Below, one piece after another: positions 25,344-26,405 of a stretch of 49,837 nt of DNA; the first letter of the stretch is position 1, and each line of letters opens with the position of its first letter. The translations under genes and the position numbers were made by a program. Below the pieces are notes generated by a model. The model ran no database searches. It was not told the DNA's origin and saw nothing but the letters and a program-made list of their open reading frames with translations. The stretch comes from an uncultured Eubacteriales bacterium (GTDB lineage Bacteria > Bacillota > Clostridia > UBA1381 > UBA9506), in NCBI GenBank assembly GCA_949299615.1, contig CASGBM010000017.1, positions 1 through 49,837 of the forward strand, given 5' to 3'.

Positions 25344-25940
25344 CTAAATTTCATTAAAGGACAGCATCGTTGCAAATCCATATTCATCCACACGCAAGCG
25401 GCAGATACCGGCATAATTTGCCTGAAAATGCCAGCCGCCTTCTAAATTCATGTCCAAAAGCATAGATAAAATATTACGGATGCAGGAAAGATGGGTAACA
25501 ATCAAAATCTTTCCTTTCTCATGTCTTGCAAGTATTTTTCGGATTGCATCCGCATTTCGTTCGCAAACCTGCAATTCACTTTCCCCTTTGGGGATTTCAT
25601 ATTCGAACCAATTGTGAAACCATTCATGGTGCTCATCCGGATATTTATCCTGAATCTCCTCCATCGTCATCTCTTCCCAAATTCCAAAATTCCTGTCACA
25701 AAGCTCCCCCATCGTTTCCGCAGAAATGAACAGGCTTTTTGCAATCGGCGCAGCCGTGTCATACGACCGCTTAAGCGGACTGGTGTAAATAGCATCCAGC
25801 TTTTCTCTCGCAAAAGTCCGTGCAAGAGAAAGCGCCTGCCTCTTTCCGCGCTCATTGAGCGGAATATCTGTAACGCCGATATGTTTGTTGGTAACAACAT
25901 TCGCCGTTTCCCCGTGGCGGACTAAAATCAGTTCAAGCAT
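25344..25940 (-). CDS. Histidine phosphatase family protein
   Basis: A 198-residue protein of the phosphoglycerate mutase/CobC superfamily. The phospho-acceptor motif L-V-R-H-G-E-T is at residues 6-12; then I-P-L-N-E-R-G-K-R-Q-A, the second Arg in T-S-P-L-K-R-S-Y-D-T-A, and the closing catalytic His in I-V-T-H-L-S-C-I-R. Members dephosphorylate small metabolites; which one cannot be told here. The ATG is preceded by GGAGGGG. It stands alone between purL and the repeat element, with its own terminator. Confidence 0.92.
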   Translation of the reverse strand: MLELILVRHGETANVVTNKHIGVTDIPLNERGKRQALSLARTFAREKLDAIYTSPLKRSYDTAAPIAKSLFISAETMGELCDRNFGIWEEMTMEEIQDKYPDEHHEWFHNWFEYEIPKGESELQVCERNADAIRKILARHEKGKILIVTHLSCIRNILSMLLDMNLEGGWHFQANYAGICRLRVDEYGFATMLSFNEI

Positions 25941-26092: not shown

Positions 26093-26405
26093 AACCGCCG
26101 GCATTGCCGGCGGTTCAGCGTGTCGATAAAGTCGACACGCTTCAAGTCGAAACCTCTTTTCAAGAGTTTTCGCTTAAAAACAAGGGCTTTCGTTCGCACG
26201 GCGCTCTCCGCGCCAGCCCTTGATATGAGCGGTTTTCGTGGTACACGCCCACGAAAACCGCATATTTAAGTACAGGCGGTTTTCGTGGTACACGCCCACG
26301 AAAACCGCATATTTAAGTACAGAGGGGTTTCCCCTCTGGCAACTCCCCATAATTGCGAAAAGATAGGTTTATCTACAGTCTGAACCGCCGGCATTGCCGG
26401 CGGTT
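26093..26405. repeat. Hairpin-packed element bounded by identical palindromes
   Basis: This 313-bp gene-free block is almost entirely inverted repeats. The ends (26093-26115 and 26383-26405) are the same 23-bp palindrome with arms AACCGCCGGC/GCCGGCGGTT. Between them lie a 10-bp stem AGCGTGTCGA/TCGACACGCT (26117-26141); an 11-bp stem with one mismatch (26148-26172); a long hairpin CAAGGGCT/AGCCCTTG enclosing GGCGC/GCGCC (26181-26222); two copies of a 13-bp stem GCGGTTTTCGTGG/CCACGAAAACCGC (26229-26261 and 26276-26308); and AGAGGGG/CCCCTCT (26321-26337). No ORF of note on either strand. It looks like a mobile palindromic element or a structured RNA. Confidence 0.75.
26229..26322. repeat. Perfect 47-bp tandem duplication
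   Basis: Positions 26229-26275 and 26276-26322 are identical. Each unit is a 13-bp-stem hairpin with loop TACACGC plus the tail ATATTTAAGTACAG. Identity without drift suggests a recent duplication or selection. Confidence 0.9.

Follow-up and report, generated by a model that had tools for sequence, protein, structure and literature searches.

A hairpin-rich MITE family in Clostridia with duplicated putative transcription terminators at its ends and a covarying core

The genome of an uncultured Eubacteriales bacterium carries about 25 dispersed copies of a non-coding element with conserved ends, and one of these copies forms the inside of the densely folded block at positions 26093-26405 of the window (i.e., the whole stretch of DNA analysed here, 49,837 nucleotides). 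The element has the properties of a MITE: it is short, contains no transposase ORF, has terminal inverted repeats, occurs in dispersed copies and is accompanied by a target duplication. We consider it highly probable that it is moved by an IS1182-type transposase targeting terminator hairpins, and that the hairpin is duplicated by gap repair.

The block stands between a histidine phosphatase gene (25344-25940, minus strand) and the gene rpmB for the ribosomal protein L28 (26420-26608, minus strand; PF00830, 75 bits), whose terminator appears to be the target. An earlier reading, made from the sequence only, had described the block as bounded by the same 23-bp palindrome on both sides, filled with many stem-loops and devoid of ORFs. 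The repeat, ORF and folding analyses confirm this: the palindrome AACCGCCGGCATTGCCGGCGGTT is found identically at 26093-26115 and 26383-26405; no ORF of at least 60 aa lies inside the block or the 267-bp element; and the folding energy of the plus strand is -172.3 kcal/mol vs. -90.2 +/- 4.8 for 100 dinucleotide shuffles (z = -17.2; for the minus strand, z = -13.9). The stem-loops of the block are the two terminator copies, the end hairpin and the hairpins H1, B, C, a second C and D, which are described below. The sequence-only reading had also seen no likeness to known riboswitches and similar elements, and the Rfam searches agree with it. No family reached its own gathering score at the block, and no match to the core did so at five homologous loci searched with E up to 5; thus, the match to a known family that had been named as an argument against the reading was not obtained. 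Elsewhere in the window there is a pemK RNA (Rfam RF02913; 3160-3256, plus strand) with 63.7 bits at a gathering score of 34.8.

In the own genome (2.39 Mb in 208 contigs), the block has 46 matches, most of which begin and end just inside the palindromes; the other copies match the window block only inside about 26114-26383. Since 25 left ends (CAGCGTGTCGATAAAG...) and 19 right ends (CAGACTGTAGATAAACC) were mapped in this genome, the element proper is the non-coding insert at 26116-26382 (plus strand, 267 bp in the window copy), and the palindromes are flanking target DNA and not the element ends. The earlier suggestion that the palindromes could be the termini of a small non-autonomous mobile element is therefore only partly retained. 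The mobility is supported by the search for copies in the own and related genomes, proposed at that time, which found them dispersed and with conserved ends; the palindromes as termini are ruled out, because the flanking hairpin differs from copy to copy and the congener G001 has a single rpmB terminator. Many, if not most, copies in the own genome are located at contig ends, as expected because a repeat breaks the assembly.

The left terminal inverted repeat CAGCGTGTCGATAAA (26116-26130, plus strand), present at the 25 left ends of the own genome, is contained in the end hairpin (26117-26141); the right one, CAGACTGTAGATAAA (26368-26382, minus strand), has 18 exact copies in this genome, located at element ends, and the two repeats are alike at 12 of 15 positions. 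The following parts lie between them on the plus strand. Hairpin H1 (CGAAACCTCTT TTC AAGAGTTTTCG, 26148-26172) is seen in the sequence, and its place in other genomes is occupied by a hairpin of different sequence. The core consists of part B (26182-26222), in which the outer stem AAGGGCT/AGCCCTT encloses two small hairpins, and part C (26229-26261), a 13-bp stem with the loop TACACGC and with pair changes across genomes. The repeat search revealed a second, tandem hairpin C (26276-26308), which results from a 47-bp direct repeat with the units 26229-26275 and 26276-26322; among the other copies in which this part was seen, hairpin C is single, and the window copy has two. Hairpin D (CAGAGGGG TTT CCCCTCTG, 26320-26338) is followed by CCCC and, together with this CCCC, is also found in G004, G134, G257, G377, G393 and G444.

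Two deviating forms were observed in the own genome. The left-end hairpin at C76:9773-9798 has an inverted loop (GACTTTATC in place of GATAAAGTC), and the copies at the contig ends of C73 and C79 (L033, L034) continue into a second hairpin-rich element, which at C79 ends in CAGTAGACATTAA and possibly represents another family or a chimeric copy.

An inverted repeat stands directly against 41 of the 44 ends in the own genome (gap of 0-1 nt), while the proportion reaching the same inverted-repeat score is 2.9% among random window positions and 1.3% among shuffled flanks. The sequence of the flanking hairpin is unrelated from site to site for nearly every copy. The first 8 nt outward of the hairpin contain 58% T as compared to 29% in the window, and, of 43 flanking genes, 33 are oriented toward the element. 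Based on the abutting hairpins, the outward T-richness and the converging genes, we regard the flanking hairpins as putative intrinsic terminators, the marks of which they carry. If the ends are counted separately, the flanking gene faces the element in 21 of 24 cases on the left and in 12 of 19 on the right, and this orientation bias is too weak to draw a conclusion. The exceptions are the copies in C31, lacking hairpins at both ends, and in C75, lacking one at the right end; the former (C31:3717-3939) possibly has another type of target or a decayed one.

The same whole hairpin is present on both sides, as a direct repeat of 20-28 bp, in 11 pairs of left and right ends, and the flanking hairpins are near-identical (one or two bases apart) in three further pairs. 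Copies with the duplicated hairpin that are whole within contigs include the window copy (C17) and those in C62, C113 and C145.

The gene order purL - phosphatase - rpmB is conserved in the congener G001, where the gap between the phosphatase gene and rpmB contains no insert but a single hairpin AACCGTCGGC-TTT-GCCGACGGTT with a T-tract behind it on the rpmB strand. This hairpin differs from the window palindrome by one compensated stem pair and one loop base. Since G001 has one homologous terminator and no insert, the window palindromes are to be read as the rpmB transcription terminator and its duplicate around the insert. The right copy (26383-26405) would be the first one met by the rpmB transcript, and its T-tract is replaced by CAGACTG of the element; the left copy (26093-26115), i.e., the target site duplication, keeps the T-tract when read on the minus strand (TTTTTGTATATTTTTT).

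These data also bear on the proposal of an IS1272-like replacement of the target hairpin, with the palindromes belonging to the element. The same transposase family and the same kind of target speak for it (PMC5678879, PMC4923244); however, it requires identical flanks at different sites, and instead the flanking hairpins vary between copies yet repeat on both sides of one copy, and the terminator of G001 is homologous to the flanking palindrome. We reject such replacement, the chance of which seems negligible.

The hairpin duplicates might also be thought to come from repeats mis-joined in a short-read draft, considering that most copies of the own genome are found at contig ends. Against this, two-sided copies occur inside the contigs C17, C62, C113 and C145, and the same pattern is found in the closed chromosome NZ_CP097810, where a hairpin repeat of 19-32 bp accompanies 10 of 16 copies of related elements about 210 bp long. 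The closed genome refutes an assembly artefact as the general source of the duplication, and we give this explanation almost no weight. At least 109 stretches of other Clostridia genomes contain the left end and its hairpin; 63 of 80 such left ends adjoin a hairpin, and a whole-hairpin repeat of 15-39 bp is present at about 28 ends. The bodies of these elements differ and are mostly 200-510 bp long, and the right end is usually CAGACTGTCGAAAA. Viral contigs, phages and plasmids yielded no copies of the element. A similar non-hairpin sequence (CTTCC..TTTT) precedes the left ends in L127, L129, L134, L140, L148, L192 and others, which suggests tandem or nested copies of other members.

The element itself encodes no IS1182-type transposase, but a related IS does. 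The MITE ends (CAGnnTGTnGATAAA) match the ends of IS1182-family elements (NCBIfam NF033551, Pfam PF05598 and PF13751) within a few bases. A PF13751 transposase gene is located on contig C126 of the own genome between the ends CAGACTGTCGAAAAA and CAGACTGTAGAAAAA, both beside hairpins; the gene is flanked by ends of the form CAGACTGT(C/A)GAAAAA, which agree with the MITE ends in 14 of 15 positions at the right and 12 of 15 at the left. The frame of this gene is broken, and the two hairpins flanking the IS differ. Ends of the C126 type beside hairpins flank PF13751 genes in G011 and G022, and similar ends beside hairpins are found in L114 and L115. An intact relative of 492 aa in G072 (L258) belongs to the NCBIfam family IS1182 (464.5 bits at a cut-off of 270), and its IS is also located between hairpins. 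Judging from the ends and targets, trans-mobilisation of the element by an IS1182-type transposase is likely.

A different mover (another enzyme or an RNA-mediated spread), with the ends and targets shared by chance, would agree with the conservation of the folded core, with the lack of a PF13751 gene in the closed genome NZ_CP097810, which has many element copies, and with the fact that the exact autonomous partner, i.e., a copy with exact MITE ends and whole-hairpin duplication, was not found. Nevertheless, the ends match those of IS1182-type ISs of the same genome and family, which abut hairpins as well, so we consider a different mover improbable.

Two further observations concern the related ISs. 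A 54-bp mini-element at C26:7670-7723 is built of two right ends of the C126-type IS that face each other and adjoins the same hairpin as the left flank of the C126 IS. The IS1182-type elements or MITEs in L258 (G072), L081 (G012) and C126 have a different hairpin at each end, perhaps due to recombination or adjacent deletions after replicative transposition.

For the preferred reading, i.e., mobilisation by an IS1182-type transposase, we presume the following course of events. An IS1182-family transposase acting in trans would bind the CAGnnTGTnGATAAA ends and recognise the terminator through its hairpin (a cruciform or a single-stranded fold) rather than through its sequence. It would cut at the 5' foot of each hairpin arm, and the 3' ends of the element would be joined there on each strand; the repair of the resulting gaps of 20-30 nt would duplicate the entire hairpin. 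An RNA polymerase arriving from either direction would then meet a hairpin without the T-tract, the element, and a hairpin with the T-tract. Since the latter is kept on the far side, termination would be preserved and the folded element would be added to the mRNA 3' end; accordingly, the duplicated hairpins are presumably used as terminators, with read-through into the element. Terminators would be safe harbours for such an element: the coding sequence is spared, and a working hairpin with its T-tract is kept.

The targeting of palindromes and terminators by IS1182-family elements is already known. Palindromic targets are a trait of the family (Siguier et al. 2015, as cited in PMC5678879 and PMC4923244), and IS1272 and TnSha1, its representatives in staphylococci, use as the target a hairpin of any sequence, often a confirmed transcription terminator (PMC4923244). 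The element described here shares with the family the ends of the CAG...TGT...AAA type and the palindromic targets, and the related ISs in this genome and in the order abut hairpins; it differs in that it has no transposase gene, duplicates the complete hairpin and contains a conserved folded core not seen in the related ISs. IS1272 and TnSha1 delete or replace the target hairpin with no target duplication (PMC4923244, PMC5678879), whereas the element here keeps the hairpin twice. The duplication of the whole hairpin was drawn by Wan et al. 2017 as “pathway b”, a theoretical alternative only (PMC5678879); they did not observe this outcome, and our data provide natural and many-fold evidence that insertion by an IS1182-type system can duplicate an entire hairpin. 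ERIC, Correia/NEMIS and BOX/RUP/SPRITE are also short, non-coding, hairpin-rich and dispersed, partly in transcribed intergenic DNA, but they have other sequences and ends, and duplication of a whole terminator is not reported for them in the relevant part of PMC10969869.

We found no description of terminator duplication by a MITE in the openly accessible literature; the same applies to a non-autonomous family duplicating the entire terminator and to the covarying core. ISfinder gives variable direct repeats for the IS1182 family, and whole-hairpin repeats may sit there uncommented. Group IIC introns prefer terminator sites, and target duplication is not expected for them; the element differs from them in having no match to a reverse transcriptase or ribozyme. 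The 25 copies, the empty site and the closed genome make structure-guided target choice directly testable.

The inner core of the element is conserved in its structure. The covariance analysis on homologues proposed by the sequence-only reading was based on an alignment of 80 nt (parts B and C) in seven sequences, where 94% of cells are paired and 15 of 27 pairs have changes on both sides; the covariation score is 0.504 vs. 0.164 for the shuffled alignment and at most 0.129 for the slid one. Changes on both sides affect 10 of 13 pairs of hairpin C across genomes; in part B, compensatory changes are found in the inner stems and, in more distant copies, in the outer stem too. RNAalifold applied to nine longer sequences agrees with this structure. 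The covariance model R1 matches the window at 26182-26261 (100.2 bits). Of 391 class genomes, 10 contain the core according to a covariance model, with up to 11 copies in each; a DNA search of the class detects the inner body in other families. In G134 and G257, a terminator hairpin recurs at both ends of many core copies, as it does for the window copy. Thus, the core has a structure with compensatory changes beyond the controls, which several clostridial families share and which is absent from Rfam.

It had been suggested earlier that the block could be a structured RNA made from the rpmB transcript. The compensatory changes in the inner core across clostridial families, the extreme folding stability of the block and the copies in the genus g197 (G377, G393, G444), most of which immediately follow a stop codon in sense orientation, speak for such an RNA. 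However, an immobile RNA gene, or an immobile 3'-UTR element of the rpmB transcript, that stays at a fixed locus is contradicted by about 25 dispersed copies, each with different flanking hairpins, and by the absence of the element at the rpmB locus of G001. We regard this version as refuted and very improbable; the element could still be a mobile carrier of an RNA. The core may play a part in transposition as DNA, or its role may be that of an RNA in the mRNA 3' end. That it is a new class of structured RNA in terminator-seeking mini-transposons, with a fixed sense form after stop codons in g197, is a tentative idea which we hold to be rather doubtful. If it is true, each insertion extends a host mRNA by a folded RNA at its 3' end, because only the far side retains the T-tract after insertion, and this would be a way of distributing a 3'-UTR module across the genome.

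Concerning the strand of such an RNA, the small loop is GNRA-like (TCNC on the plus strand, GNGA on the minus strand), which is only a hint at the minus strand. The core alignment has 48 A-C vs. 10 G-U cells on the plus strand, from a handful of independent changes each, and most of these cells come from two lineages; since two lineages dominate, we do not rely on this asymmetry as proof of the RNA strand.

The copies of the core in g197 have neither the IS1182-type ends nor the hairpin repeats. Most of them lie in sense orientation with a stop codon immediately before them, often with the next gene close behind (e.g., L278, L281, L293-L295, L321-L326), and by their position look like a fixed 3'-UTR or intra-operon element. 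A sub-threshold match to the glycine-GGAnGA riboswitch was observed at L280:2296-2457 (minus strand), with 83.6 bits at a gathering score of 110.
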